Notes under the pieces: generated by a model
Databases searched by the model: none
Seen by the model: only the letters and a program-made list of their open reading frames with translations
Told to the model about the DNA's origin: nothing
Program-made: the position numbers and the translations under genes
Assembly: GCA_021432635.1 (NCBI GenBank)
Contig: MU270106.1
Location: 66,087-130,086 of the forward strand
Length of the DNA stretch: 64,000 bases
Reading direction: 5' to 3'
Source of the DNA: Thozetella sp. PMI_491
Taxonomy: Eukaryota > Ascomycota > Sordariomycetes > Chaetosphaeriales > Chaetosphaeriaceae
Shown here: piece after piece, positions 164-60,907 of the stretch
Layout: every line of letters begins with the position of its first letter
Numbering within the stretch: position 1 is the first letter of the stretch

Positions 164-445
164 AGTTATCTTTGTTGCTCTGGCCATATGCGGCCATATG
201 ATAGTCTGGGCCGTATGACAGTCATTGCGACCGACTCGGGTTAAAGATTGAAGTTATGACTAAAATATAATTAGAATAAACTCCTACTCTCCATGTTATT
301 TCTGATCCATAGAGCACCTAGTAGAGCTGTATACGCGCAGGCGGAGGTAGTACCTGGGCTCTACACTAGATGGGGTAGAACCACTTCTTCTACCGGGACA
401 TAGTGGCTAGTAGACCGGCGTGGGTCGCGCTTATTTCTATCATAT

Positions 446-737
446 TGTCACAAAGGAAGCAGGGGTATAGCTCTCAGCTGAGCGCCAGCCTCACCAGCTG
501 GAAGCAGGGAAAGCTTATGAACTGGCTCGGCAAGCAGCTGATCCATAAGCAGGGGATCCAGCTAAGCAAACAGTCTGTGATAGTCATAAGAGTATTCTGG
601 TCTATTTAGGTAGTGGTTAAGTAAGTATAGGAAATGTATATATAATAAGTGTAAGCTTCTCTAGTATAGATGGGAAGTAAGTAAGTCTTTAACTGTTTAT
701 TTTATAAGAGTTATTATATCTCTACTTTATTGTAACA
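446..737 (+). mobile_element. RIP-degraded solo LTR (copy A)
   Basis: A 292-bp block begins TGTCACAA and ends TTGTAACA, so its ends form the short inverted repeat expected of LTRs (TG...CA). It aligns along its whole length with 40864-41156 in the same orientation. Most differences are C/T or G/A, and this copy is the AT-richer one, as RIP would produce. I see no flanking target-site duplication (CATAT before, GTTAT after). A 68-codon open frame inside it is not a gene. Confidence 0.7.
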
Positions 738-1082
738 GTTATATACCTGGTGATTAGCTAAGTTATATATTGTATAAGCTTAAAACTAATATAATGGATT
801 TATATATATAATTGTTTTAATCTTTTACCCCTTTAAATAATTATCTAGATAGTTACTGTAATACCACGCACCTAGTATTACTGCGCTACACTGCCAGTAC
901 GAGTTTTGCACTCGTTTGGCGCTGCCAACTAAAGGAATATATCGTATATAACTGTAGGTTTGGTAACAGAGGTTGATCCGTGCAGGAGCAAGATCGCGAA
1001 CCGTTCGGCTGCGAGTCGCTTACTCCCTATATGTAGGGCCCCCACAGCTGAGCCAGCCACTACACCGCACATATCATTACAT
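738..1082. other. AT-rich repeat-derived spacer
   Basis: No coding signal. This stretch lies between LTR copy A and a second LTR end at 1083-1130 and may be internal element sequence. It contains a small hairpin (ACGAG, 7-nt loop, CTCGT) near 899-915. Confidence 0.4.
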
Positions 1083-1130
1083 TAACTGTTTACTTCATAA
1101 GAGCTACTGTGTCCCTACTCTGTTGTGACA
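1083..1130 (+). repeat. 3' end fragment of the same LTR family (copy C)
   Basis: This 48-bp stretch matches the last part of the LTRs at 446-737 and 40864-41156 and keeps the undamaged terminus TTGTGACA at 1123-1130. It shows fewer transitions than copy A. It may be the end of a second, truncated element. Confidence 0.55.
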
Positions 1131-2289
1131 CATATCAGCCTAATATATAAGATGAATCTTGTTATTAAAGGTTTCTTATTTTGTGGGTCGGACGGTGCTG
1201 CTGCTTCGCTTTAACCTATGCCTAGATGCAACTAAACGGACTAAATTATTTTGTATTACTCTATAGGAAGTAAAAAGAGATAGTAAAATAAAGCCTAAAG
1301 ATATACTAGAATGAAAGAAGTAATCAGTAGCTTATAGATTATTAAAGCATGTGAAAGAAAGTACTAGCTTTTATAATAGGACAAGCTATACTCCCTAGGG
1401 ACTATAGGCTTTTAAAATATATATATCCTTGGCACTAGCAACTTCAAATTCCTTTATTCAGTGGCTGCTACTAGTTACCAATCCTACATCTAAGACTAAG
1501 ACAGCGCACTACCGGCCCCGCTGTGGCTAATGTTCTACGGCCCCTAAGCGGCACTACTAGGCTTGGGGTGGCGGGCATGTTGCTGCTAGCATTATACACT
1601 TAGGTAGTCAAGACTAGCGCACAACCCTCTTGCCTAGGTCTCTAGCACGAAGCCTAATCTTATAAATTTCACTACCTTCTGCAAGGATAGGACAGAAACG
1701 AACCTACCGGCCCGGGGGGGGGGGGGGGCTTACACATCCTCCCAGCTACAGTTGATACGAGACCGAGACTACCACCAACATAAAGCTAGGTGGGTCGCAT
1801 GGCTCGCTTGGAATTTGAGCACATACCGCCGTTTCTGCTCGTTCTATATCGACGCATGTGATACGCAAGTCCATATCATCTTTCTGCACAAATTCCTCCC
1901 TCTGCATGACTGATTGAACCGCGGCGTTCCCGCCCACTAAAGGGCAGCCGCCCCGGGTCGATACACCAAAGGTGCCTGCCTAAGATAGGTAGTTAGGTGC
2001 CTACGCAAAGTAACGCGACGGAATAAACCATCACAAAGCATCAATCTAGGCGGTTTCCTATACAGGAGTACAAACAATATTCCCTATGAATATGTTAAAC
2101 AATAATTAAACAGCCACTACAGTTCTACTAAGGCACATTTCTTTCCTCTCCGACAACGGTGATACCAATTACCCAAGCCCAACAACCGCCATTTTACAGC
2201 TGCCTTGCAGCGAATTTAACCCAGACTAGAGACAGGAGTTGTCGTGCCTGATTTGCTTCCATCTATATGAAAAAAGTGTTAGTATTGTT
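1131..2289. other. Non-coding, RIP-like AT-rich tract
   Basis: No supportable gene. The tract is AT-rich with many TAG/TAA triplets. It contains a run of about 16 G at 1714-1730, a likely place for assembly length error. Confidence 0.45.
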
Positions 2290-2598: not shown

Positions 2599-3202
2599 GT
2601 TTGGTGATCTCAGTTAAGGACGATGAAAATTGATTCGTTGAAAGAGATGCTTGGCTAGGAATGCTGGGATAGTTCTAGAGCTTGTGGGTATGGGCGTGGT
2701 AGGTCTATTATTTATCTACAATACGAGCTAATGACATACTATCTTCACGGTAGTATATAAATAGCCATTGTGAAACCAACTGCGTATTTGCGTCTTGTTG
2801 GTACGAGAACTTCTTGAGCAATGTATCTCTATTGGTTAAGCATCACCGGAGAGAGTCGCGCGCTAATTAATCACGTAGAAGATGTTGGTGGGTCGTAATC
2901 GAGGCGATGCTTGACTTCCCATTGGGCAACTGGTTGTTGACGTTGGTAGAAGCTGAGGAGGCCGAAACCAACAAACCACCCCCCACCCCCAACTGTCCGG
3001 CAACGGCCATGCAAGGCCTACAACCCTGGACTTTAAAGCCGTATTTTTACTCTGGAAATTGGGAGAGAGGGATTCCCAGCTGATCAAGACAGACTATAAT
3101 GAACTAACCAGGGGGCTAGGGGGGTGCCTACTATTTGCGACTCACACTGCATGAGAGGAAGACAACCAGGTACCCGTTTGCTACTCGCGGTCTGAGAGAC
3201 AT
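2599..3202. other. Intergenic, including distal promoter of the phosphatase gene
   Basis: No coding region was found. A TATA-like TATATAAATAG stands at about 2753-2764 but leads only to a 25-codon frame at 2821. C/T-rich sequence just upstream of 3332 probably belongs to the 5' untranslated region of the next gene. Confidence 0.35.
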
Positions 3203-3224
3203 CACGTGGTTAGCTGATCACGTG
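3203..3224. promoter_or_regulatory. Twin CACGTG E-boxes upstream of phosphatase gene
   Basis: Two perfect CACGTG hexamers lie at 3203-3208 and 3219-3224, with centres 16 bp apart, about 108 bp before the ATG at 3332. CACGTG is the core site of fungal bHLH regulators. Function here is inferred from position only. Confidence 0.4.
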
Positions 3225-3331
3225 CAACGTGGCCAAAGAATAAGAAAGCCACCCCCTCCTCCCAACTCAACCCCAACCCCTCTCGAGCTTTCTCGTCTTT
3301 CCTCTCTCGCTCTTCAACCCCAGATTCCTTA

Positions 3332-4021
3332 ATGTCTTCACCAAAGCAGCGCCCAGTGCTGCAGCCAACTGTCTCAGAGATCGAGCCCGGCCTTTTGCTC
3401 GGCGACAGCAAGAGTTCATACGACCTTCCCACACTTGAGAAGCACAACATTAAAGCCATTCTCTCGCTCAGCGATGTAAAGAGTCTGCTCTGGAATCGGG
3501 AGGTCAACAGAAAAATCGTACCGCAAGAACGCCACATGTTTGTTGAATGCCTGGACAGCTCAACACAGGATATACTACAACATTTTGCTAAGATGTCTGA
3601 CTTTATCGAGGACCAGAGAGCAGCGGCTCCGGATTTCCTGCCAACTTCCTCCGCTGTCCTCGTCCACTGCACTTTCGGAATTTCTCGTTCAGCTACAGCT
3701 GTTATCGCCTATTTGATGAGGAAAAATCGCGAAGAGCTAGAAGTTGTTTTGGCACGTATTAAGGAGAAGCGTAAGGTGAAACCCAACGCAAATTTTATGG
3801 AGCAGCTGAAAATATGGGGCGACGTGGAATACAATATTTGGGAGGATGCAGAGCAAAAAATCCCAAAAGAGGCATACCGTGCCTACCTGGAAAGAAGAGC
3901 AGCCGCTTTAAAGGCAAAGGGCTTGACTGGTAACGAGCCTGCATTTTCTTTCTCCGACAGAGAAATGGTTTATGACGACCCGGATCAAAACGCCCAGGAG
4001 GAATCGGCCGTTGTCGTATAG
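3332..4021 (+). CDS. Dual-specificity protein phosphatase (229 aa)
   Basis: The protein removes phosphate from Ser/Thr/Tyr residues by a cysteinyl-phosphate mechanism. The P-loop HCTFGISRS (residues 112-120) carries the catalytic Cys113 and Arg119. Asp75 in VECLDSS, about 38 residues upstream, is the expected general acid. The N-terminal part (EIEPGLLLGD) matches the usual start of DSP domains, so the domain spans roughly residues 12-165. The last 60 residues are charged, without a second domain. The gene is intronless. The ATG at 3332 directly follows a pyrimidine-rich leader and two CACGTG boxes. The substrate is unknown. Confidence 0.88.
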   Translation: MSSPKQRPVLQPTVSEIEPGLLLGDSKSSYDLPTLEKHNIKAILSLSDVKSLLWNREVNRKIVPQERHMFVECLDSSTQDILQHFAKMSDFIEDQRAAAPDFLPTSSAVLVHCTFGISRSATAVIAYLMRKNREELEVVLARIKEKRKVKPNANFMEQLKIWGDVEYNIWEDAEQKIPKEAYRAYLERRAAALKAKGLTGNEPAFSFSDREMVYDDPDQNAQEESAVVV

Positions 4022-19057: not shown

Positions 19058-22000
19058 TCATCCTCCACTGCGCCTCACATGTGTCTTGTGATGCCTCCTC
19101 ATATCATTAGAGCGTGTAAACGCCTTACCGCACGCTCCGCACTCATAATTCTTGATCTGGTAGTGGTTGTCTACATGGGCCTTCAGGTTCATCCTCCGCG
19201 TAAAGCGCTTCGGACAAATGGTGCACTGATGTTTGGCCTCGGTCGTCTGCGGCCGGGCCACCACCGCATCAAACGGACATCCCTTGTCAGACTGGTCTGG
19301 ATGTGTCTGTCGGACGTGCCGATCGAGGTCGCGGTTGCTAGAAAACCCGAAAGGCACCAGCGAGCAGGACGCCACAGGGCACTGGAACGGCCGGTCATGG
19401 CGGTTGAGGTGCTTCTCGGCCATCTTGTCGCTGTTGAAGCCCCGGTGAAAGAAGTCGCACTTGACGCGCGGGCACTTGTGCAGCCACCGGCCGTAATATT
19501 CATGGAGGCGATCTAGCGCGGCGCCGCGATTGCTCTGGGCCGCTAGTTCCTTGATTGCCTTCCGCGACTTCTCGATGGACTCACGAAGTCTCTTTGGGCT
19601 CACTTCTCCGCGCTCCTTCGGGGGCAGCTTGGTTTCGTCGCTGATGTGCTGGCACAGCCGCAGCAGCTGCGGGTAGAAGCGCCGATTGGCGAGCTTTTGA
19701 CAGTATTCCGCAGGATCGACTTCCCTGTTCCGCTCGCCTTGTGACGACCGCTGAGAGCTAGATGCCTGTGACAATCGTATCGGGGCCGTCTCTTCCACTC
19801 GCTCGCCTTCACTATCGGAATCATCAATATAGAGTGCGACGAAATCTTCCATGGCTTGTTCCAGTTTGCTCTCGTAAGTTGGTCCTTTGACAGGATCCTC
19901 GAAGAGCTCAGACACGTCTTCGACGAGGCACTTGACGTGTCGCTTCCAGTGCGATACCGCATAGTCTTGGAACCCGTAGAGACCATCTGTGGCGAATTGC
20001 TCGCGTTCATCATCTTCCAGTTCAGGAAGGAAGCATTCGAAGGTGAGATAGCGGAGCGATAAATCGAGCAGATCGCACTCGATCGTTTGAGCGTTCAGGT
20101 CCTCATTTTGAACTAGGTAACTGTACTCGTGTTAGTATAGCATGGGCCTCATTATCAATATGCTATTTTACCTTTTGGTTGAGCTGTGGGTGAATTCAAT
20201 GCGGCTATTATCGAAAACGTGGATTAAGGACCCGCATATCTTCCGGGGGTCGTCGCGCAGCTTCCTGTTGTGATAGTCGACTTCTTTGTTATCGAGATCG
20301 ATGGACAGCGCGGCCTGGAGCTCATGCCACGCGAGATGGCGCTTTGCTCCAATGAGAAGCGCGAAGATTTTTCTTGCTTGCTCCCAGGCGTTAGGGTGGA
20401 GATGCTCCTTCATGCGCGTTATAATCTTGGCGTAACTGTCCCAGAGGTTAGCCCATGCCCAACTCGCCGTTACCATGCAACTTACGCCTCTTCCAGGGTC
20501 TTCGGGAACTTCTTCTCCTCCAGTTCCATCTTTAAACACTGTATCGTCGGCTGTTCTTGCAAGTTGTCCATGACCACTGACGCGAAGAGAAACATATCTG
20601 CGTGATGTATTAGAATCCAATACCCAAGTCCCTCCCTTGGTAGTAGCTCACCTTCCGCCCGCAAGCAGACCATTTTTTGTATTCGTTCAATTTCCTCTGG
20701 CGTCAAAGGAAACTTTTCGCGCAAGTCCATTGCATTCCTCTCTACGAATCTTCCGATGTCGGCTTTGGTGAACCCGGTCTCGAGATCTAGGATCTCGGTA
20801 TAATCGGCATCCTCCATCATCTTCCGGAAATCAGCCAGATCCTGGCTGATTAGGAGCACTCGTATTCTCCCAGATTCGTATTGCCGCTCGCATCGGTCAA
20901 TCACCTCCTCCCAAAACTTGAAAACCTTCCTCCGCTCGCTCTCTCCACATTCGTCCAGCCCGTCGATGATAATGAAGTGTTTTTGCGGGTAGTTACAATA
21001 CACGCGGAGGAGCGAGTCGACATCATGTTCGTCTTTGAGTATATCGTGACGACTTTCCTGTCTTTCACTGGCGTAGGGTAGGAGTTCTTCAATGGAGAGG
21101 GTCATCTGCAGTAGAATCTCCTTGAGGATCGCCAGGCTTGTGTTCTGGTGCTGGTCCCCTTCTCGGCAATAAAAGTAGCTCGTGTTAAATTCGGGGATTT
21201 TCTTGCACTGTTCAATGATTACAGATGCGAGAATAGTCTTGCCTGTTGCTCAAAACCTTTAGTATAGACGTTGAAACAAGTCTACTGCAATTGGCCCTTC
21301 TTACCGGCACCTTTTTTTCCATTGAGCCAAACAATGGACTCAGCGGGGGTCTCTTCGTTTATCCAATTAAAGATGGTCGGGCGGTTCAATATCCAGGTTC
21401 CAGTATTGGGAAAGTCACGTCTCAGCTCTGTGTGCTTTTTATGGTACTTGTCCTGGCGGACTCCAGGATTTAGCATCCACTTCAACGCCCGTTTCTTTTG
21501 TTCTTCCTTTCGCTGCTTTCTCTCCTCCTCGGAACGACGTAGTCGCTCCGCTCTATCCTCCTCATAGCGCATCATGAACTGGCGTAGAGCCTGCCTATCA
21601 TCTTCGTACCGTATAGTATGGTCGGTCAGATGGCGGTTGATATCTTGGATGCCGTTCACAATGACACCTCTGGCTCGTTGGGATTGATGGTAATGGTCTT
21701 GGCTACGGACAATGTGGCCGATGAGTTGCCGATTTTCGTCTCTGTCCTCTTGCAATCTCGTGACCATGAAGGCGTTTTCTAAAAGTTTCGCGTGGCTATC
21801 GAAATTGTCCAACAGCGTCTCAAACTCTTTCTCGTAGTCTTTCCAGCTAGAGTGGAATGTTTTTTTCCAATCTGTCTGAGTTAGCGTCTTCTAGGATTTG
21901 GTGACACATTGGAGAGCTCGGAGTCTATTACCTCGATAACTTAAAAGCTGGATGATTCTGCCATGAAAGTGGGCCAAGTCGTGGTACATGAACGCAAGAC

Positions 22001-26915: not shown

Positions 26916-29166
26916 CTAGATAATCTCGCATTCTGTTATCCCAACGTCTCCCACCTCGTTCATAGCGCCGTCATTGTGGTGCTGTATGGAGACCCCAATC
27001 CTGCTATATAGAGACGGGACTGGGCCAAGTGACAGTAAAATCAAGCCCGTTATGGCTACTTCAGTGCCCTGGCATAGTTTCCGCAACGGCAGGTACCAAA
27101 CTGGCATCCTCCCGGTCGGGTGGCCACGGGAGTCGAGAGTCAAGTCGCTCGAGGACATTGCACCCAACTCCAAATAAGCTTCGACGCTGGCATCAATGGA
27201 CGCGTCCCCGATAATCATTTCTAGGTTTTCTGTGTCCAACAGAGCTGCCGAGAACCGCGGATGGATACGCCGAGTAGGAATGAAGGAATACTCTGCATCT
27301 ACTCCATGGGAAATAGCGCCTAGTGTTTGACGCGTCCGCCAGTCTGAATACTTGCTGCTGAACTCGATAGTGGCTCTTCTTAGGGAACCACGGAGTGTCA
27401 GCCCCCACCGTGGTCTCTGTACAGTATCCTTCAGCGGATCGTCCGAAGAGCAAACGGCCTCAACAACCTCGGCAAGGTCAGTCTTGTCTGTATCGTCGAT
27501 GTCCGGCTGTGAGATGTACCGAATCCGGACCTTTCCAACCGATGCCCAAGACCACGATGGCGCCTTCTGGCGGTCTTTTGGGCAAAGTACTTCTCGAGGA
27601 TCGTTGTACGCAACATACCACTCCAGACCGCGCAGAAGATCCTCTTTCCACAGTCCCGCAAGGTACGTTGTTCCGTGGCCGCGACTGAACATTGAAGCAA
27701 GGCCGGATAGAGCCCGTATAGTATCACTGACGAAGCTCAAGTTCTTATCGCTGTACTGCTCCACCGTAGCATACCAAGTATCGAAGTGGTTGGAGCGGGG
27801 CCGAAAGTGGCGAGCACAGGCAGCCATGCGATCTGCGGCGTATAACCACATGCGCATCCTGTCAATCTCATCCGCGTACCCGTCTTGGAACGGATCCGCT
27901 ATAGCTTGAGGAACTGGTCGCGTCTCTTGCGCTTTGCTTGACGTGCATCTCCATCCCATCTGCTCGCCGAAGGTGAGGCAGCGCGAGCTGAGCACTTCTT
28001 CTTGCAGGATCCAGCCGCGGTCTTTGAGATAGTTCTTGCCGTTGAAGCTACCCGCAAGCGTTACGTCGCGCGCAATCTCACCGTCAGAATTCTCACTGGT
28101 AGCAAAAGTCATGCGGATTTTGCATGGCCGGTATTCTCGCCAATCCCTTTGTCGAAGCACGCCGGCGTTGGAGCTGGACGAGCCCTCGGTCGATATAGTG
28201 AAGAGTGCTTGCCGGTAAATGTCGCCCATGTGTGCCATCTCTAGGCTCATTTCTCCGTCATCATCCTGAACCATGCATAGCGCGTCAATCCAAAGGTACT
28301 TGTACCCAAGCCCATTCGTCACGTAGATCGCATCTCGGAAGGTCTTCGGAAGGTTGGCGATTCTAAGATCGTACGAGTGTGCCGATAGTGTTGACTTCAG
28401 TGTCAATACTCGCTTGCCGCGTCCCCAGCAGTAGCTGAGAGCAACATAGGCGTTTGGGGAAAGGGCCCCTCGCGTTTCGCGGAGATAAGGCCGTTTGAGG
28501 TCGCTGACATCTATCACGCGGGTGGGAAGAGAGTCGCGGCCCGTTGTAGTTCTTCCTAGCGCGCACATCGGATGGTTTTCCATGCAGTTGGCTATCCATA
28601 GTTGAGCTAGAGAGAGATTGGCAAGAGAAGTAATGCCCGTATCGGGCATTAGTTGCCTCTCCTGAGAAGATGATGAGCCGGTTTGATGCAAGGCTCTGGG
28701 CAGACCCCGAGTGTAAATTAAGCCGTTCATGACAGCGTCGTAAGCAGCTGGAGTAGTGTTAGGTTCTTCAAGCTCGCCAACCAGCGCCTGGAGCCTGGGG
28801 AATATTGGCGGTACCTGGAAGCTCGTCGATCTCATCTAAAACTGCGACACCTAGTTTGCCAATCACAGTGGCAGATATTCCCTGGAAGCCGTGCGACTTA
28901 ATGGTAGGGTCCACAGAGGTGAGCCGTAGGACAATATAGCCGCCTACTCTCTCGCAAAGAGGAGGATTGACGCGCTCGGCTGTGCCGAGCTGCCCTCTCA
29001 GGAGGAGGCAAAAACGACATCCAGCAGCCACGGACTGCTGAAATGAAGCTCGGCTTGCATGGAGAACATAGACCTGCGAAGTTGATGTTCCAAATTGGAG
29101 CCCATGTGCGCCCAGCTCGCCGAACCGAATTGCTTGGCATTTGTCGCAGAGCACGTCTCTTGCCAT
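26916..29166 (-). CDS. HET-domain (heterokaryon incompatibility) protein
   Basis: The large exon 26916..28835 carries the HET domain in order: YVALSYCWG, LPKTFRDAIYVTNGLGYKYLWIDALCMVQ (as separate blocks), YRQALFTISTEG and RGWILQEEVLSSRCLTFG. The C-terminus is the usual variable region. The N-terminal part is in another frame (ATG at 29166, MARDVLCDKCQAIRF, with a Cys-rich AAGCRFCLLL block), typical of HET proteins. A plausible join is complement(join(26916..28835, 28915..29166)) using a 79-nt intron GTGGAC...TTTTAG, giving 723 aa. That boundary is uncertain, and a simple frameshift is the alternative. HET proteins trigger cell death after fusion of incompatible hyphae. Confidence 0.82.
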
Positions 29167-43050: not shown

Positions 43051-44491
43051 ATGAAGTTCTCGGTTGCTCTCGTTGGCGCTCTCGCCATTGGAGCCTCTTC
43101 GCTCGCGATCGACCGTTCCATCGCGGAGCGTGAAATGGCTGTAAGTAATCTCCTGCGATTCATCAGCACCTAAGGAGCGCCTCTATTATTCAGTTACACT
43201 TGCTAACTGGCTTCAGGATGCTATCATTGACTTCGTCAACAAGCGTGTGCCTCAGAACAATCAGGTTCCGCCGCCCCCGCGCACCACCACCCCTCCTCCT
43301 CCGCTGCCTACTCCGGTCAACGGCCAGCCTGCCAACGGCCAGAACGGCCAGCAGGGACAGAACGGTCAGCAGCAGGGACAGAATGGTCAGCAGCAGGGAC
43401 AGAATGGTCAACAGCAAGGACAAAACGGCCAACAGCAAGGCCAGGCCGGTGGTCAGGGCCAGGTCGGCGGACAGGGCCAGGGCTTTAAGCGCCAGAACAA
43501 CCAGGCCCCTCCGCCGCCGAGGACAACCACCCCGCCGCCTCCCCTTCCCACTCCTGCCCCGGTTAATGGACAGAATGGTCAGAACCCTCAGCAGGGCCAG
43601 AACGGCCAGCAGCAGGGCCAGAACGGCCAGCAGCAGGGTCAGAACGGCCAGCAGGGTCAACAGCAGGGACAGCAGGGTCAAAACGGCCAGCAGCAGGGTC
43701 AGGCTGGTGATCAGGGTCAGGGTCAAGGCTTTAAGCGCCAGAACAACCAGGTCCCTCCTCCCCCGCGCACCACCACCCCTCCGCCCCCTCTTCCTACTCC
43801 TGCCCCGGTGAACGGTCAGAACGGTCAGCAGGGCCAGAACGGCCAGCAGCAGGGCCAGAACGGCCAGCAGCAGGGCCAGAACGGCCAACAGCAGGGTCAG
43901 AACGGCCAGCAGGGTCAACAGCAGGGACAACAGGGTCAGCAGGGTCAGCAGCAGGGCCAACAGGTTCAGCAGCAGGGTCAGGTTGGCGGCCAGGGCCAGG
44001 GATTTAAGCGCCAGAACAACCAGGTCCCTCCTCCCCCACGCACCACCACCCCTCCGCCCCCTCTTCCTACTCCTGCCCCGGTGAACGGTCAGAACGGTCA
44101 GCAGCAGGGCCAGAACGGGCAGCAGCAGGGCCAGAACGGTCAGCAGCAGGGACAAAACGGCCAGCAGCAGGCTCAGAACGGTCAGCAGCAAGGTCAGGCT
44201 GGTGGTCAGGGTCAGGGTCAAGGCTTTAAGCGCCAGAACAACCAGGCTCCTCCTCCCCCGCGCACCACCACCCCTCCGCCCCCGCTTCCTACTCCCGCTC
44301 CGGTGAACGGTCAGAACGGCCAGCAGGGACAGAACGGTCAGCAGCAGGGACAGAACGGCCAGCAGCAAGGACAGAACGGCCAGCAGCAGGGCCAGAACGG
44401 TCAGCAGCAGGGACAGAATGGTCAGCAGCAGCAGGGCCAACAGGGCCAGCAGCAGCAGGGCCAGGCCGGCGCTCAGGGTCAGGGCTTTTAG
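43051..44491 (+). CDS. Secreted Kex2-type repeat precursor, Pro/Gln/Gly/Asn-rich (454 aa)
   Basis: The CDS is join(43051..43140, 43217..44491); the 76-nt intron (GTAAGT...TGCTAACTGGCTTCAG) separates the leader from the repeats. A signal peptide (MKFSVALVGALAIGASSLA) is followed by a short acidic pro-segment ending FVNKR. Five tandem units follow, each preceded by Lys-Arg (codons at 43241, 43487, 43733, 44006, 44228). Each unit has QNNQ or VPQNNQ, then the block PPPPRTTTPPPPLPTP, then heptads of NGQQQGQ type, ending GQGF. The last unit ends GQGF and stop, without KR. Cleavage would give five peptides of 80, 80, 89, 72 and 85 residues. It has the layout of KEX2-processed repeat proteins (pheromone, repellent or RiPP-precursor types), but the units are long and low-complexity. 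A wall or matrix role is an alternative. Confidence 0.85.
43247..44488 (+). repeat. Five-unit coding tandem repeat with nested 21-bp minisatellite
   Basis: Units: 43247-43486, 43493-43732, 43739-44005, 44012-44227 and 44234-44488, separated by the six-base KR codons. Within each, CAG-AAC-GGT-CAG-CAG-CAG-GG(N) style 21-bp heptad repeats vary in number and cause the length differences. The complement gives a long Leu/Val-rich open frame that is an artefact. Confidence 0.9.
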
Positions 44492-52221: not shown

Positions 52222-53249
52222 AACTGGAAGAAAGGTATACTATTATCTTTAATGAACATGGCACAATAATGAAATAATACATACTTCCATTCATCACAGT
52301 CAATAGAACTTCATGTTGAGGTAAGAGGTCACTGGTTCCTCGCCTATTTGCACCTCACCAGCGAAAGCTTGAAAATCTATCCGTCGACTCGTGAACAACC
52401 AAATAAATGCTCACCTTAGATCCTATTTTTCACCTTTTTTTTGGGGGGGGGGGGGAATATGGTACTAGAACTAACTGCGCGTCGTAGCAGCTGTGGGCCC
52501 CCTTTGCTCTTGCCTCGTCGAGTAAACACATACTGTCAGATGGGATGGAACAGGTCCTCAAAAGCGCGTGCTGCCAATACACCCTCAGCTGCTTCTTAGG
52601 AGTACAGAATGTAAGATAATAGATTATTACAGTCCTAGTTACGGTTCAGCCTAATAATTCAGAGTCTTAACACTCAACTAGGTAGAATATTAGTGAGATC
52701 TATAAAATGATGTGACGGCCTTTTTGCCGCCGGATTTGGCAGGTTATGCTACCTAATCTAGCGGTAAAACAGCAGGTTAGTGGGGCTACTAGGAGCCTTT
52801 TTTTCCCCGGCACCTAGCAATGTTCTGTTCTAGCATTTCGCAAGTGTCTGTCCTAGCACCTAGCAATCGTTTGTCCTAGCATCTGGCAATTGTCTATCCT
52901 TGCACCATACTCCCTATATTAATATCCGCACTCCTCTATCCTGATAGGTATACCAGGGCGCAAGACATATCTAGTAAGCAGCGATTCTCACTTTGAGGAT
53001 ATTTTTATCGAAGATCTCAAATAACTCCACACGATATCAAAAACGAAGTGCATGCTGTGGTTGTATTAAGTTCCCAAGTCTACTCGTTTTTATTGAAAGT
53101 CCCTAAAACCTAGCTCAACAGCTCCATAGCCTCTCCTCCACGCAAGAAGCGGACTTTCATGAGCCTATCATAATCTCTACAGCCATGTTTCTCTAGTGAT
53201 ACCAGACCTAAACTTCCCCTAGCTCTTCAATATTATACTAAACCAAAGT
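52222..53249. other. Intergenic with hairpin repeat
   Basis: No gene. Includes a T8-G14 homopolymer junction at about 52435-52456 and the hairpin repeat at 52690-52930. The remainder is AT-rich. Confidence 0.4.
52690..52930 (+). repeat. Hairpin-containing dispersed repeat, left copy
   Basis: Contains TATAAAATGATG, then an imperfect inverted repeat (TTTTTGCCGCCGGATTTGG ... CTAATCTAGCGGTAAAA, 52729-52769), then several TGTCCTAGCACCTAGCAAT-like words. The same order occurs at 60260-60500 in the same orientation. Confidence 0.55.
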
Positions 53250-55016
53250 TTACGGTATACCTCCTAGCTGCTGGCTAGCTTCGAGGTGGGGTAAAACGAG
53301 GGCCCGCAGCTCATCCACGACTAAACTTCTAAATTTAGATCCAAGACATCTGCGGGCTTCGTAACTATCGTCGGCAGGCGCGTTAACTTCAAAGTCGCTC
53401 CGGAGGCATCGCAGAACAATATCACGGTAGGCTACGCCAGCTGTGTAGCTGAGATGGTTGGTTGCGCGTCGAAGCAGCTTGTTACGGACGTGAACGGGAT
53501 CGAGCTGCCGTGCCCCGTCCATGTCGATAAATGACGTCGCACGGCGCCACATCCCCAGTTCAAGTAGGACCACACCGAGCGCGTACATGTCGTGAACGGC
53601 CCCAAAATTGTCGGTCGGCACACCCCATCGCTGCGGATGGCGGTAAACGTTGCGATACGGGTCATCGTCCAACCGGCTAGACGTGGCCGCGTCCATCTTG
53701 CGGGCGTACTCGAAGCCGTATAAGAACCATTGGGGTGGCAGGGCCTCCGGCTCCTCATCATTGCTGCCCTGAATGCTCGCGACGGCGTCCTTCTTGTAGT
53801 AAAAGAGAATATTCTCGCTCCGAATACTCTTGTGAATCCATGATACCGAATGAAGTCTATCCAAGGCTGAGGCTAGCCGATAGGCCACGCGGAGCCGCTC
53901 GTCGAGCGATGGACCGGAGGAGAGTGACGTGTTTGGTAGCGCATAGAAGAGCGATTGAGGCTCCGGGTAGACGTCTTCCGGCATAGCGAAGAGTAGCGAG
54001 ATCGCCAAACCCTTGTCCGGCCTCTCTACCCAGCCAAGGCACTCGGGAACTGATGGTTCGAGTGGCCGTAGGTGCAGCAGGACCGATGTGAGCTGATTTA
54101 GACGGTCCTTACGGATAATAGCCCCGCCGTCTTTCAGCGACTCACGGGGCCCTCGGTCATAAATTTTTGAGTCGACCACAACGCTGCGATTATCAAACTG
54201 TCCGATTTCGAACTTGGAAGATCCGTCACGCTTCCTAACGTTCTGCAGTTCTTTGTAGGGCCTCTCAAATTCCCCAGTTACTTCCTCGTTGTTAAACCCA
54301 TCAACCAAAGCGCCTTCTGGCGGCGAGGAAGGCAGTCTCAGCGCCACCGCTTGTGCGGCCAGGGCGTCTTCGATACCGAGTTGCTCGGCCTCGCGAGTCG
54401 AAAATATCTCCAGCATTGACCGGTGGTCCTCTCCCGTTCGGTAGAATCGAACCTGGTGATCCAAAACGTGGAGCTCGATCACTTGGGTAATCTTCTTGTT
54501 CCAGAACTCGAACTCATCGATCAGTTTCGACACTCTCCTCTTATCCCAGGCCGCCCAACGAGCAGTCATTGCTATGGCTGAGAGAGGGCTGTTGCGTAAA
54601 TTTTTCGCGTCACCTGTCGCTCTCCTTTCGGCAGAGCCATGACTGGTGGCAACAGTGGGGCCACGGGGCGGTGAAGGAGTGTCGACAGTGGCCTTTTCGA
54701 GAAGCAGGTAGCGCTCATCAAGCGGCAGATAGCGATCAATAGCTTTGGCGAATTGGTTGAAAATGGCGTGCAAGCCCTCCTGGGCGACTGGATCGAGCTG
54801 GGAAAAGAGGCGCGAGTGACTGTTGAGCGGTTCCGAGAATAGGAGCGTCTTTAGCTGGAGAGTGATGCCTTTCTCGCTCGTGACTCTGGCGATAACGTGC
54901 TCTCGGTCACCCCCAAAATTCCGAACGTTGAGTACAAGTTCAGCCACTGCACCATAGGCGTTAACCAAAGTATCTATCAGTGACAGCGTGGCGAAGAGCA
55001 GGCCAGCGATATCCAT
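53250..55016 (-). CDS. HeLo-like domain / pseudokinase fusion (588 aa)
   Basis: The frame opens upstream, but the first ATG is at 55016 (MDIAGLLFATLSLIDTLVNAY). Residues 1 to about 230 resemble the HeLo/HeLo-like cell-death helical domain (LIDTLVNAYGAVAELVL, LFSQLDPVAQEGLHAIFNQF, RRVSKLIDEFEFWNKKI). The C-terminal half has a kinase fold pattern (LRVAYRLASALDRLHSVSWIHKSIRSENILFYY, as blocks; YRHPQRWG; DMYALGVVLLELGMW). Catalytic residues are lost: HKS replaces HRD at about 395-397, YGFEYARK takes the place of DFG, and no clear glycine-rich loop is seen. It is therefore a likely pseudokinase. Intronless. It is divergent from the kinase-ankyrin gene 287 bp away. HeLo domains permeabilise membranes when activated. 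Confidence 0.8.
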   Translation of the reverse strand: MDIAGLLFATLSLIDTLVNAYGAVAELVLNVRNFGGDREHVIARVTSEKGITLQLKTLLFSEPLNSHSRLFSQLDPVAQEGLHAIFNQFAKAIDRYLPLDERYLLLEKATVDTPSPPRGPTVATSHGSAERRATGDAKNLRNSPLSAIAMTARWAAWDKRRVSKLIDEFEFWNKKITQVIELHVLDHQVRFYRTGEDHRSMLEIFSTREAEQLGIEDALAAQAVALRLPSSPPEGALVDGFNNEEVTGEFERPYKELQNVRKRDGSSKFEIGQFDNRSVVVDSKIYDRGPRESLKDGGAIIRKDRLNQLTSVLLHLRPLEPSVPECLGWVERPDKGLAISLLFAMPEDVYPEPQSLFYALPNTSLSSGPSLDERLRVAYRLASALDRLHSVSWIHKSIRSENILFYYKKDAVASIQGSNDEEPEALPPQWFLYGFEYARKMDAATSSRLDDDPYRNVYRHPQRWGVPTDNFGAVHDMYALGVVLLELGMWRRATSFIDMDGARQLDPVHVRNKLLRRATNHLSYTAGVAYRDIVLRCLRSDFEVNAPADDSYEARRCLGSKFRSLVVDELRALVLPHLEASQQLGGIP

Positions 55017-55303
55017 ATTGATAGTGCTGATTGTGGTGGGTGTTTGGATCTCGATGAATGTTTCAACGGATCTGCACATTCGATTTGCGGCCCAACTTAA
55101 GGCACGAATCCTGATAGGTCTTGTCACCTGACTCACAGCCCGCTCTACCAGGCGTTCTACGGAACTTGACTCTACCAAAGAAACTTAACAGTCTCACTGT
55201 GTGGGTGGCTACGCCTTCACGCCCGAGTCCCCGCTCCTTACGCACGCTGTGGAAGTCAGCAGTTCTGTTTGCCCCGCGCTATCGCCGAAATTAATCGAGA
55301 AAC
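55017..55303. promoter_or_regulatory. Shared 287-bp bidirectional promoter
   Basis: Only 287 bp lie between the ATGs of two divergent genes, so they must share promoter elements and may be co-regulated. No classic TATA box is obvious on either strand. Confidence 0.5.
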
Positions 55304-58300
55304 ATGGGCCATAAGTCGGTCATCATGTCGGCGACAAGCGGAGGTCGGGATAACCATGCTTGGGAGGAATCAGCCTGGCCGGTCTCGCTGACTTATGCCT
55401 TCGTCTCAACAACTATTGACAACGACCTAGGGGCCTTTTCAGCCGATGAAATCGGCAACACACGCATTCTCCTTGGCGAGGGTGCGACCGCCAGCGTCTA
55501 TAAGGCGGCTCTCAGACCGAAGGGCAAAAGCCTCGAGGCCGCTCAGGCTGTAGCCATCAAGCAGAAGCGGCGAGGCTCGTGGCCAGACGAAGAAGGATCG
55601 CTGCAGTCTTGGCTCCGCACTGCCTTCCTAGACATGCGAATTACATCGTTTCCGCCTTTCCAATATGCGCGAAACGTCGCTACTATCATTGGCTACTTCT
55701 GGGAGACAGCTACTGTCGACGGCCGGGAATGCTTGTCTCCCTGTCTGATCATGCCGTTAGCAAGCTCGGAGGTGCCGACGCTCGAGGACCTCTTTCGGAG
55801 GCTTCAGCTCTGCATACGCGACAGGATGCACTTCTGCCATGCCGTCGCTAACGGTCTCGCCGAGCTGCATAACGCTGGCGTCGTCCACGGCGACCTCAAG
55901 CTCGGCAACGTCCTGCTATTTGGCGACCCAGGTGATCCGGGTCGGCTCACACCCAAGCTTTCCGATTTTAGCCACTCTTTCGTCATGAACGATATGCGCG
56001 ACGAAGACGTTAGCTCTGACAAACAACCTCTTTACACCGGTACACGGCCTTTCGCGATCCCAGAAGTCCGCCAAAAAGATCAATCAATAACAAGTGCATC
56101 CAATAAAGACGATGGCACAGCTGCAAAGCCGGGTGAGACGTTCTTTGCGAATCGGGATGACTTCTACCGGTGCGACGTCTTCGGGCTTGGCCTCTTGCTT
56201 AGCGCCATATTGACCAATGGCTTGGATATAGCAGCGCGGGCGGCACGTTACCTACGGGAGCGTGGGCTCCCGCCAGACGACGGACTTCTCGTCGAAGATC
56301 TAATCGGCTCGCTCTGCAACGATCCCTTGGGCGTGCTCACAGAGTGCCGGGAGGCCTTCTCGCGTTGGGGCGCGAATTCCACCGAGCTGGGCGTGACGAA
56401 TCAGGAATTGGTGTCCTCCATAGATGACTCTCTCGAGATGTGCCTGAGACACATCCCAAAGCTGCGAGCATCGGCTACGGATGTGACGGCAAGGATCAGT
56501 GACTGGCTCAGGCATGATGATAGCGCCTTTCTGGAGAGGTAAGTATCTTTCTCCCCCACGACCAGGGCCGCTCACCGCTGCGTTTTCAGGCTGACGATTA
56601 CGCAAAGCGTTTCTTCTCCCAGTACCGTTCCTAAGCGTCAAGCCTATGTGCAGAACGATGGGAAAGTACCGCCTCTTTGTGGCTCTATCTACGAGGTTCG
56701 CAAGTATTTCGCATTATTTGATCATACCCGCAACGCCCTAACTTTATCTCACAGCGAATGGCCATCCTCTCGATGAATAGCGACCCACAAGAGGCCTCGG
56801 CAATCCAGTCCCAGATATTTAATGAGGCGAGAAGCAAGTCTAGGAGGGCTACGGCCGCGTCGGAGCATTTCCTCGCGAGCTGCTTCGCGCTAGGAGTCGG
56901 GACGGATGCGGACATGAAAGAGTCCGTGGCACATCTTGAGCAGGCCTACCAGCTAGGGCACATGGCTTCATTTCTCATCCTCGATCGCCTCACCGTTGCT
57001 ACGGGGTACTATACCGACCAACAGGTGCAGCTGCGCCTGCCGGGTTCGTGGGCCGTCCCCAGCCTCGACTATGACAAACGAGTCCGGCAGACAAAGGCTA
57101 TGCATTTCCGCGACGGCCATTTCATGGGTACCATGATGTCCAAGAGGAAGCCGCAGTTGTTTGGATTTCGTCGCCCCAGAGCTCGAACCGCCACGGATGA
57201 ACTTAAGGGGATTGATGACGGCACCGTTTCCGAGCTCCTACGAAACTTCGCAAGCCTAGAGTCAAATAACGATACCACCGTGACAACTGTGCCTATGGAA
57301 GCACTAGACCCGGCTTTGGTAGACTTTGGTATTACGTTTGCCAAGTTTGCCCTCGAGCATGCTCGGCTACAGGAGACTTCAGGGGCAAGTGCATGCGATC
57401 AACCGCTCCTTGACGCTGTTAACTCGTCCGCTTGCCTTGATTCTTCATCGGACTCGCAGCACAAAACGCTCCAGCTCATTGAGGCAGCACTGCAGGCCGA
57501 GGGACATGACAAGGCGCAACTCGAGAGAACAACACCGTACGGTGACACGCCACTCCTGCTTGCTTGTCGCAACGGCCAGACGCTTGGTGTGCGCCACCTA
57601 CTTTCTGTCGGCGCGGATGCATCTGCGGTGAACACGCGAGGGCTGACACCTCTCCACTGGCTCGGATTCTTTGGTGATGACGCCCTAGATATTGCGCTGC
57701 TCCTCGCCAGCTCCGGCGCTCCGCTGAACGCCCGGACGAGCCATCACGTGGACTTGGAGGAGCACTGCTTCTATTTGCCCCCTGGTTGTACCCCGCTGCA
57801 TTTTGCCGTGGGCATGCGAAATCTCGGTGCAGTCCAAGCACTTGTCAGACTTGGCGCTGACCTGTCTGTCACCGTGCCGGTCGTGTTGGCGTTCCACCAC
57901 TACTACATGACACCCCTACACTTTGCCATTTGTCTCCACTTCCACGAAATAGTCGAGGGCATTCTTATTACGATGGCCCAGGTCCCTTCGGTCGACGTCG
58001 TCCTGTTCCGAAAACGTATTGATGCTGTAGATCAGATTCGCCCTATTTCGGCGTTTCATCTAGTCGGTGTGCCCTTGTTCATGCAATCCTCGATGGCGCC
58101 CTTCGCCCGCTGGATACTGCATGGAAGCCATTCCGAGAAAGCTGCCGAGAAGACCATCAGTTGCCTCTTGGAGGCGTTCCCTAGGAAAGATGTCTTAGAG
58201 CTGCTCCGCCACCCACTCTCCAACGTCGCATGGCCCGTGACGGACCGATACATCTGGCGCGCTTTCAAAAAGTTTCGAATAGGCCCGAAACGGATAGCTC

Positions 58301-59820
58301 CGGGGGGGGTAGAAGGAGATGGCCAGCTACCAGAAGCTGCCATTGCTTTCTGTGTCAATCCATCCCACCCTGTTGAGTCTTGGGTTGTTGCCGCCCTCCT
58401 GGGGAGCACCTTGGCCGTGTCTTCGACTGTCGCCATGGAGATGGCCATTTCGGAATTCGGCGAGCCCGAACTTCGCTTTGAACCCGGGTTCTTGCTACAA
58501 GCTGTCGGGTACTGTGCTGCCACCGATCTCGTCGGGTCATTCTCCGTCCTGATCAAGATACGGCGAGTCCGAGAGGCGCTCACGAACACTATGCCGTTGG
58601 TTTTCTGGCTGGCAGCGTGCCACAACGCCGTCGGAATTATGCAGATTATCTGGGACGTCTTTGTCAGGGGCGCCGGCATATCCCGAGACAGACATGTATG
58701 GGCCAGTGCCTGCCATCAGTGCGGTTTCATGCGTCGTAACAAGGGTATGCTAACGTCTTCCGACACACAGCGCAAAGTGTACCTCGACTTCGTGCACAAG
58801 AATATGACTCCGCTCCACGGCGCCGCACAACGCAACGCGGCCTCCGCTGTAAGATTCCTGATAAAGAATGGCGCCAGCTTGGACTTCGACATAAGACAGA
58901 ATGGAACGCCACTGTACATGGCTGCATCCTCATCGGCCAAGGAAAGCGCCTTGCTCCTTCTCGACAGCGGCGCAAAGATAAACTGCTGCCGGGCTCGCGG
59001 GGATAGCTACAATGTATTACACGCTTCAGTTGCAGCCCCAGATATGGTAATCAAGAGAAGTCGTGAACTACCGCTAGCTCGCTCACACCTTCAAACTCAT
59101 CACGCGGGACTCGTCAGCGATCTACGCAACACCCTTAGCTCCCGAGACATAGACGGGCAGACGCCTTTGCACACTGCTGTCGTTTACTGTGATGTAGCCA
59201 CAGTTACGCTGCTCTTAGAGCTCATTGTCGAGTCTGGGAACACCAACCTCCTCGCCCTCGCCAGTGAAACTGGCGTGACGCCGCTGATGTCTGCACTACT
59301 CCGGCAGCATTTCAACAGCCTGCTAGGGGGGGTCGCTGATTTAGAGAAGAATGTCGCCACCGCCGCCCGCGAACAGGACACAGGCGATCATATTTGGCTA
59401 GGAAAGCAAGCCGGCTTGATCGCCCGCATGCTAATAGATGCTGGATCGCCACTACCCGAGGAGGAGGAGATGACCGGCGCCCCGATGTTTATACTCAACG
59501 CCGTGGTAGATGCCTTGTTCACAGTGTCACCTTCAACCCTCGACTTTGGCATCATCTGTGCATCTGCCTTTGGCAAATTCAGTTTTATGCAGCGACCGAG
59601 CCCACGGACCGGGCTACCAGCTCGGGTTTTAGTGGCACCAGGGCCCCCTCGGAGAATTATCGTTTACCCCGACGGGTTCTTTCAAGGGGCACCAGTTATT
59701 GTTTTTACTAACAATCGTCAGCATAATATATGGTCTAGATGGATCTTCAGCTGCGTGTGCCAGTTTGACGCATGTTCGTGGTTTGCAAATATTAGACATA
59801 TTTTTAACAATAGTGCTTAG
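55304..59820 (+). CDS. Protein kinase with C-terminal ankyrin repeats (1468 aa)
   Basis: The model is join(55304..56538, 56590..56695, 56755..59820); introns of 51 and 59 nt keep frame and link what look like two ORFs. The kinase domain (about 55-420) has a glycine loop LGEGATASVYKA, Lys86 in VAIK, catalytic loop HGDLKLGN (His195, Asp197, Lys199, Asn202), DFS in place of DFG (Asp221 kept) and a TGTRPFAIPEV activation segment, so it is probably active. A Sel1-like stretch (ASEHFLASCFALGVGTDADM) follows. Ankyrin repeats run from about 709 to 1330: GDTPLLLACRNG, GLTPLHWLGF, CTPLHFAVGM, MTPLHGAAQRN, GTPLYMAASSS, GQTPLHTAVVY and GVTPLMSALL. The architecture parallels animal RIPK4/ANKK1. Its HeLo-pseudokinase neighbour suggests a sensor-effector pair. 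Confidence 0.85.
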
Positions 59821-60907
59821 CAATTCTTGATAGCATTTTATCTTGAAATAAAACTTACGAACTGAGCAGGAGTACTTACGTACTAGCGATATTTATATCA
59901 GACTCTCGATGATCAAGGTGAATCAAGATGCATTTGCTTGGAAAGGAGAGTTGAGATTAGTGCTTTTATGTTTTATTGCCTATAATGGCCTTGCTGTGTC
60001 TAGGGATTCCACCACTTGCCTAAGTAGCTAATATGAGGCCGGTTTGCTATTAGGGCTTTCTTGGAGCTGTTAACTAAGCATATAGGGATAAATAACACGT
60101 AAAGTGAATTGAGAGTTAAGACCGATTTCGGCTATGTTCGCATGTAACCAGCTTTAATTGAGCACTGTATAAAGCCGCCAAAAAGTTTCCTGAAATGGAA
60201 GCTACTAAAAAGAGTAAATCAATGCCGCAATTTCTAAAGGAAGTAGGGCAGTCTTATAAAATACTTTATAAAATAATGAGGCGGCCCTTTTGCTGCCGAA
60301 TTTGGTAGGTTGTTCCCCCTAATCTGGCGGCGAAAAGCCTACAAATTTGTCGCTATAATAACTGACTAGAATAGACACTAATAGCAGCCCTATTATTTTA
60401 GAATATGTAGAATATAAACTTTGTCCAGTATATATAAGGCCCTCTGTCTCAGCACATAACCCTTCGTCCCGGCACAAAAGCTTACATGTCTTCGTCCTAG
60501 CACATGGCATTCCAATCTAGGCCAACTGATAATACATGCAGCAATGAGATGGACTTTGTGCCGCCAGATTTCGCATACTTACTGGCAAAATTGTTCACTG
60601 ACTCATCTACATAGCGTCTGGGAACTGCCTGTTTATCTGTTGCTAGGTAGATGAACTTCTATAGTTCTTAAAAACACTTCCTATCCTTCAGTCTACAAGT
60701 CGCAGTGGCCGGTGAAGCTTCGAGGAGTTTTCAGGAGATATTTTAGGATCTAAAACTCAGGATAATAGCAGCACCAGTTGTGCCTACCAGCAAGCATCAA
60801 TTCATTGTTGGTTTAAGTACTAAACTCTTGTCTTTGTATCTGTGCTCTCCTTGTCTTTATACCTGAGCACTCTCATCAGAGCCCAGTACCCTTGCTGCAG
60901 ACCTATG
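59821..60907. other. Intergenic, AT-rich, with hairpin repeat
   Basis: No gene. Holds the right copy of the hairpin repeat (60260-60500) and a partial related word TGCCGCCAGATTT at about 60560. The right end is the 3' region of the exonuclease-like gene. Confidence 0.4.
60260..60500 (+). repeat. Hairpin-containing dispersed repeat, right copy
   Basis: Contains TATAAAATAATGAGGCGGCC, an inverted repeat (TTTTGCTGCCGAATTTGG ... CTAATCTGGCGGCGAAAA, 60289-60336), and TCGTCCTAGCACATGGCA-like words. It is collinear with 52690-52930 and on the other side of the HeLo/kinase pair. Confidence 0.55.

Follow-up and report, generated by a model that had tools for sequence, protein, structure and literature searches.

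A recurrent divergent gene pair of Thozetella sp. PMI_491 encoding a HeLo-pseudokinase and a kinase-ankyrin protein, a candidate cell-death module

The window analyzed here, a stretch of 64,000 nucleotides from the ascomycete Thozetella sp. PMI_491 (GenBank assembly GCA_021432635.1, contig MU270106.1, positions 66,087 to 130,086 of the forward strand), contains two divergently transcribed genes encoding a HeLo-pseudokinase protein and a kinase-Sel1-like-ankyrin protein. Whole-genome searches covered the source genome (72.3 Mb, 157 contigs, the window being located on contig C92) and revealed nine such pairs, which are named below by their contigs. Recurrent adjacency and orientation of the partners within this genome are as expected of a two-gene sensor/effector module. 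We favor the view that this module mediates cell death independently of NOD-like receptors (NLRs), with the kinase-repeat protein acting as a sensor, the pseudokinase as a latch, and the N-terminal domain of the pseudokinase protein as an exchangeable death effector.

Organization and domains of the gene pair

A preliminary description of this DNA gave the coordinates and orientation of both genes correctly, including the 287 bp that separate their ATG codons. It also recognized a kinase fold lacking HRD and DFG in the minus-strand protein and, in the plus-strand protein, a kinase with VAIK, HGDLKxxN, and an ankyrin tail, all of which were recovered in the following features.

53250..55016, minus strand: HeLo-pseudokinase gene, single exon, 588 amino acids (open frame with start codon; Pfam)
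54462..55016, minus strand: HeLo domain, residues 1 to 185, starting with the hydrophobic helix-like segment MDIAGLLFATLSLIDTLV (PF14479, E = 5e-4, below cut-off; the family profile leads to HET-s structures)
53337..54179, minus strand: pseudokinase domain, residues ~280 to 560 (DUF7580; paralogue alignment; profile matching MLKL chains first in the PDB, see below)
53811..53834, minus strand: degenerate catalytic loop HKSIRSEN in place of HRDLKxxN, with loss of the HRD aspartate (motif coordinates)
53709..53717, minus strand: GFE replacing DFG (motif coordinates)
53676..53687, minus strand: ATSS (residues 444 to 447) at the activation-loop position, a candidate phospho-acceptor (Ser/Thr 8 to 11 residues past the motif)
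55017..55303, no strand: divergent intergenic region, presumed shared promoter, 287 bp from ATG to ATG
55304..59820, plus strand: kinase-Sel1-like-ankyrin gene, exons 55304-56538, 56590-56695, and 56755-59820, 1,468 amino acids (splice model and Pfam)
55451..56263, plus strand: protein kinase domain (Pkinase, E = 1.6e-10), with VAIK at 55550-55561, HGDLKLGN at 55886-55909, and DFS at 55964-55972
56857..56961, plus strand: Sel1-like segment (PF08238, E = 0.03 for the whole piece and 4e-4 for the segment alone, both below cut-off)
57541..59361, plus strand: ankyrin-repeat region (Ank_2, E = 7e-33; limits approximate)

The plus-strand gene starts with an ATG at 55304, is interrupted by introns at 56539-56589 and 56696-56754, and ends with a stop codon at 59820; this model, picked for its short GT..AG introns, is 1 among 10 open two-intron models listed. 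The two introns, the Sel1-like segment, and the DFS at the DFG position go beyond the preliminary description. PADLOC returned kinase- and ankyrin-type matches only, and in neither window protein did Pfam detect a NACHT or NB-ARC domain at E ≤ 1. A simple regular expression for the core of the RIP homotypic interaction motif, [VIL]Q[VIL]G, had no match in the two proteins, other amyloid-motif families lying outside this search. Joint expression of the two genes would be possible from the intergenic region that they share.

As a lone sequence, the N terminus of the minus-strand protein is a marginal HeLo candidate, since the whole protein scored 17.9 bits (E = 0.003) against the Pfam HeLo family and residues 1 to 185 alone scored 20.3 bits against PF14479, for a cut-off of 23.2 bits. 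At the level of the family profile, the assignment was confirmed by sequence comparison. All eight HeLo segments of the paired family (eight pairs, aligned) matched PF14479 at E ≤ 0.01, and the three best PDB matches of the HeLo-family profile were the HET-s/HET-S HeLo structures 2wvn, 2wvo, and 2wvq (E = 1.5e-13 to 5.6e-12), followed by 6dm9 (E = 0.003). The HeLo-like N terminus proposed in the preliminary description thus withstood a check that had been set in advance. Single-sequence structure prediction of the HeLo-pseudokinase was of low confidence (mean predicted local distance difference test score of 34.5; predicted template modeling score of 0.22).

In the window protein, DUF7580 covers residues 369 to 566 (E = 8e-7, Pfam), the match to Pkinase being below cut-off. 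The DFG position is occupied by GFE in seven and by GWE in two of the nine paired pseudokinases, and the HRD motif is replaced by HKS, HKG, HKA, or HQG in all but C76, which keeps the aspartate (HKD). The β3 lysine is kept in eight pairs, in an upstream piece in the case of C20, and replaced by Thr in C22. Glu is the third residue of the GFE-type motif in 9/9 paired members versus 2/9 unpaired members of the family (C8 and C10:746; post hoc hypergeometric p = 0.001). A Ser or Thr is located 8 to 11 residues past the motif in all nine paired members and also in the nine unpaired pseudokinases (C8 and C70 included); with a Ser/Thr background of 9 to 19%, this position is only suggestive of a phosphorylation site.

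On the kinase side, the aspartate of the HxD motif is present in all nine rows of the alignment (HGD, or HSD in C76), as is the aspartate of the DFG position (DFG, DFS, DFA, or DLA). The β3 lysine was found in eight rows. In C71, which supplies the remaining row, VVVK occurs in the first exon, whose splice is tentative. Pkinase was matched by all seven kinase domains of the kinase alignment and also by C22 and C45. Sel1-like segments picked by eye gave matches below cut-off in six cases out of seven, and none in C20. A profile of seven of the nine paired kinases matched LRRK2 first in the PDB and other kinases next; no RIPK appeared among the best 60 of 2,718 matches, and RIPK membership of the kinase was rejected on these grounds. 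The likeness to RIPKs put forward in the preliminary description is therefore one of layout (kinase plus ankyrin repeats).

Recurrence of the pair, exchange of the N-terminal domain, and fusions

Each partner was searched separately against the whole genome, and the loci were then compared. The pseudokinase-protein query gave 18 matches at 18 loci (the window and 17 others), and the window kinase query gave 11 matches. Six loci besides the window held both partners, all divergent, and two further kinase queries added the pairs of C22 and C45, for a total of nine divergent pairs, window included, each on a contig of its own. The conserved adjacency that had been expected was thus found within this genome. 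From ATG to ATG, the gaps are 287 bp in the window, 434 bp in C75, 356 bp in C76, 711 bp in C20, 410 bp in C10, 640 bp in C3, 380 bp in C71, 501 bp in C22, and 557 bp in C45. Paralogue identity is mostly ~25 to 35%. In the window pair, the kinase is followed by ankyrin repeats, as it is in the eight other pairs, for six of which the test used the open frame downstream on the same strand and not a full splice model.

One kinase query detected 11 kinase loci at E < 1e-8, of which 9 have a pseudokinase locus no more than 3 kb away, for 0.016 expected under random placement; the nine pairs are not independent trials, however, because the copies are related (C22 and C45 were clearly co-duplicated). 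The remaining two kinase loci are on C2 and at C9:1200773. Conversely, 9 of the 18 pseudokinase loci are paired. None of six HeLo loci devoid of a family pseudokinase (L001 to L005 and L008) had a kinase of the paired family within 1.5 kb on each side, indicating that pairing follows the pseudokinase and not HeLo as such.

Other kinase matches were not retained: C82:122917 and C6:1488070, which by eye are IRE1-like and GCN2-like, respectively, were set aside as ordinary kinases, and C9:1200773 was rejected as a degenerate kinase-like match on a contig without a pseudokinase. The four weakest extra matches (C19, twice; C6:1049495; and C27:172416) were left outside the analysis.

The N-terminal domain of the pseudokinase protein is HeLo in eight pairs and caspase-like in the ninth (C20; L042/L061). 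The C20 N terminus is 32% identical (E = 1.9e-11) to a frame of C96 that itself matches Peptidase_C14, the caspase domain, above cut-off (E = 7.7e-9), and the HYGGHG/YYAGHG and LLDCC motifs line up in the C20/C96 alignment. The caspase assignment was made via this homologue, direct searches of the C20 N terminus against Pfam and against the PDB with phmmer having returned nothing convincing.

In three unpaired members of the family (L044, L052, and L053), a kinase and a DUF7580 pseudokinase are fused in one frame: C47:496918-499176 (Pkinase, E = 1.7e-32), C70:11098-13236 (E = 1e-16), and C21:824036-826228 (E = 5.4e-19). The fusion kinases are of the active type, with HHDL[KR]PxN and DFGLS motifs. 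An active-type kinase is adjacent or fused in 12 of the 18 pseudokinase family members.

Weaker kinase-family matches at C47:490659 and C70:4267, 7 to 8 kb from two of the fusion genes, are possible further partners. On C8 (L007), a HeLo-pseudokinase gene (250-2214, minus strand) is divergent from a patatin-like gene (3025-3651, plus strand; E = 2.2e-9).

Proposed mechanism and alternative readings

To the observed architecture, motifs, pair recurrence, domain swap, and kinase-pseudokinase fusions, the scheme that we favor adds steps that we infer, namely, sensing, phosphorylation, the direction of signaling, membrane attack, and death. The kinase-Sel1-ankyrin protein would be the sensor, its repeats binding a non-self or danger cue and turning the kinase on. 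The kinase would then act on the pseudokinase of its neighbor, probably by phosphorylating the Ser/Thr located 8 to 11 residues past GFE. The pseudokinase would be a latch, the release of which would let the first helix of HeLo enter the plasma membrane, and permeabilization of the membrane by HeLo would lead to the death of the cell or hyphal compartment. In such a module, coupling via the pseudokinase would stay constant, and the N-terminal effector could be swapped. Extending this scheme, we tentatively suggest, with slightly more doubt than assurance, that filamentous fungi may possess an NLR-independent necroptosis-like pathway based on a family of kinase-ankyrin sensors, each head to head with a pseudokinase-gated effector, in which a universal latch would serve interchangeably a HeLo pore former or a caspase-like protease.

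Several observations weigh against this scheme. The window kinase carries DFS instead of DFG, and the pseudokinase frame of C20 is broken by an in-frame stop, so this copy may be decayed. Of the 18 pseudokinase loci, 6 (C103, C8, C30, C27, and two on C10) have neither a kinase partner nor a fused kinase, their flanks having been covered over roughly 0.5 to 1.5 kb upstream, and the kinase-Sel1-like-ankyrin gene at C2:840074 has no pseudokinase partner in 5.5 kb upstream. The figure given above for chance adjacency overstates the case since the pairs are related by duplication; C22 and C45 are copies of one pair, with 54% identity in both proteins. Mirror-tree analysis of all nine pairs gave a correlation (r = 0.74, p = 0.017) that was not significant upon removal of C22 (r = 0.32, p = 0.08). 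Finally, the resemblance to MLKL is sensitive to three letters. A profile of seven paired pseudokinases had MLKL as its first and second PDB matches (E = 1.5e-7 and 3.4e-7) and LIMK1 as its third (E = 2.7e-6), and with all nine paired pseudokinases ranks 1 to 8 were all MLKL (best E = 1.5e-8). Masking of G[FW]E brought LIMK1 to the lead (E = 5.5e-8) and MLKL to the 13th rank (E = 1.1e-6), indicating that the MLKL likeness in the PDB ranking rests on the motif. On this basis, we rejected MLKL homology as a demonstration of shared ancestry, and the motif likeness is compatible with both shared descent and convergence.

Signals might also flow in reverse, as in kinase-pseudokinase pairs of signaling at large: the HeLo-pseudokinase would serve as a scaffold or an allosteric regulator, with the kinase-ankyrin protein as the output. 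Pseudokinases commonly regulate active kinases, and the kinase-pseudokinase fusions are as compatible with allosteric control as with phosphorylation. We nevertheless regard this direction as unlikely, since the variable part is the N terminus of the pseudokinase protein, where HeLo and caspase-like domains are both of death-effector types, and since the repeats are located on the kinase. The main dull rival, to which we give a little less credit still, is that the two genes are ancestral neighbors copied as a block and have no joint function. The co-duplication of C22 and C45 and the confinement of the data to one genome speak for such a linkage, but the paralogues have remained divergent and 287 to 711 bp apart on nine contigs in spite of identities mostly as low as ~25 to 35%, and a functionless linkage would hardly have survived so much divergence. 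The fusions and the effector swap also argue for a working partnership.

An improbable reading is that HeLo serves here for prion inhibition or membrane anchoring, within a pair that is an ordinary signaling cassette. HET-s has a HeLo domain that does not kill, unlike that of HET-S; the sequence does not separate the two types, and, taken singly, the HeLo segment of the window does not reach the Pfam cut-off. However, one pair exchanges HeLo for a caspase-like domain, and those HeLo domains that were assayed in fungi and yeast have, for the most part, proved cytotoxic according to excerpts of a 2025 review (PMC12881547). We attach very little weight to a guard or decoy arrangement in which the pseudokinase would be a bait for an outside kinase-targeting effector and the neighboring kinase would not be its activator. 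In fungi, NLRs that have integrated a kinase domain have been interpreted as decoys (excerpts of PMC12258605), yet this arrangement leaves the active-type kinase found next to the pseudokinase in nine of nine pairs unexplained.

Relation to known systems and neighboring sequences

The sensor-latch-effector scheme has its closest counterpart in animal RIPK3-MLKL, with which the fungal pair shares a pseudokinase preceded by a four-helix/HeLo domain of the killer type, GFE, the loss of the HRD aspartate, and a separate active-type kinase. In MLKL, GFE stands in for DFG and HGK for HRD, and RIPK3 switches the protein by phosphorylating its activation loop (excerpts of PMC6013482 and PMC5104457). 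The systems differ in that the fungal kinase is not RIPK-like within the PDB matches considered above and carries ankyrin and Sel1-like repeats, in that the fungal genes are adjacent and divergent, and in that the window proteins have no match to the expression [VIL]Q[VIL]G. With the motif masked, the PDB ranking places the pseudokinase profile no closer to MLKL than to other kinases. The earlier interpretation as a whole was partly supported: its comparison with MLKL holds for the architecture (HeLo plus pseudokinase) and for GFE, but the PDB ranking of MLKL depends on the motif.

The fungal HeLo executioners described so far are triggered by NLRs, in most cases via amyloid templating (excerpts of PMC12881547 and PMC10197012). 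In the NWD2/HET-S and HELLP-type NLR-HeLo pairs described in the same excerpts, the HeLo or HELL executioner gene adjoins the sensor gene and the repeats are on the sensor, as in the pairs found here. In contrast, the sensor proposed here is a kinase, with no nucleotide-binding domain at E ≤ 1 in the window gene, and the executioner would be held by a pseudokinase instead of a prion-forming tail. A figure legend of PMC12881547 states that some HELL domains belong to kinase or pseudokinase proteins reminiscent of MLKL, and the minus-strand gene of the window is of this kind. The excerpts of that review make no mention of a kinase-ankyrin gene divergent from the HeLo-pseudokinase gene, of conservation of G[FW]E, of the fusions, or of the caspase-like swap. 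The review calls for broader study of HeLo proteins and also cites plant MLKL, similar by its layout of a HeLo-type domain plus a pseudokinase. Other related literature includes PMC9815663. In the open-licence literature searched, we found no report of the pairing of a HeLo-pseudokinase with a kinase-ankyrin protein and nothing on DUF7580 or on kinase-ankyrin proteins in fungal cell death; HeLo-pseudokinase proteins are already in print, and it is for their kinase-ankyrin partner that we found no report. The layout of the C47, C70, and C21 fusions resembles that of the plant tandem kinase-pseudokinase resistance proteins.

If the proposed scheme is correct, the pair would be a fungal counterpart of the RIPK3-MLKL step, making the origin of necroptosis testable in genetically tractable fungi, and a purpose would be found for many HeLo-pseudokinase genes. 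Either this kinase-pseudokinase-killer logic would then be ancient and common to fungi and animals, or it would have emerged on two occasions, GFE motif included. The exchange of effectors hints at a general design rule of a single latch and multiple weapons.

Related sequences at positions 52640-53000 and 60220-60600 of the window bracket the gene pair, in the same orientation on both sides, and could be mobile-element remnants; one more partial copy is present on C1 (81% identity over 97 bases). Adjoining the pair, positions 52810-52914 contain 23-bp units, four in tandem. A HET-domain gene of the heterokaryon-incompatibility type (26916-28835, minus strand; PF06985, E = 3e-28) lies ~25 kb from the pair. 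Farther away are a NACHT-type gene in two open frames (20482-21890, minus strand; NPHP3_N, E = 1e-19) and, near it, a further frame with a zinc-finger look by eye (19058-20131). Together with HeLo, such HET and NACHT-type genes would be in keeping with a filamentous ascomycete. An open frame at 43145-44491 on the plus strand is built from repeated PPPPRTTTPPPPLPTP and GQNGQQQ units.

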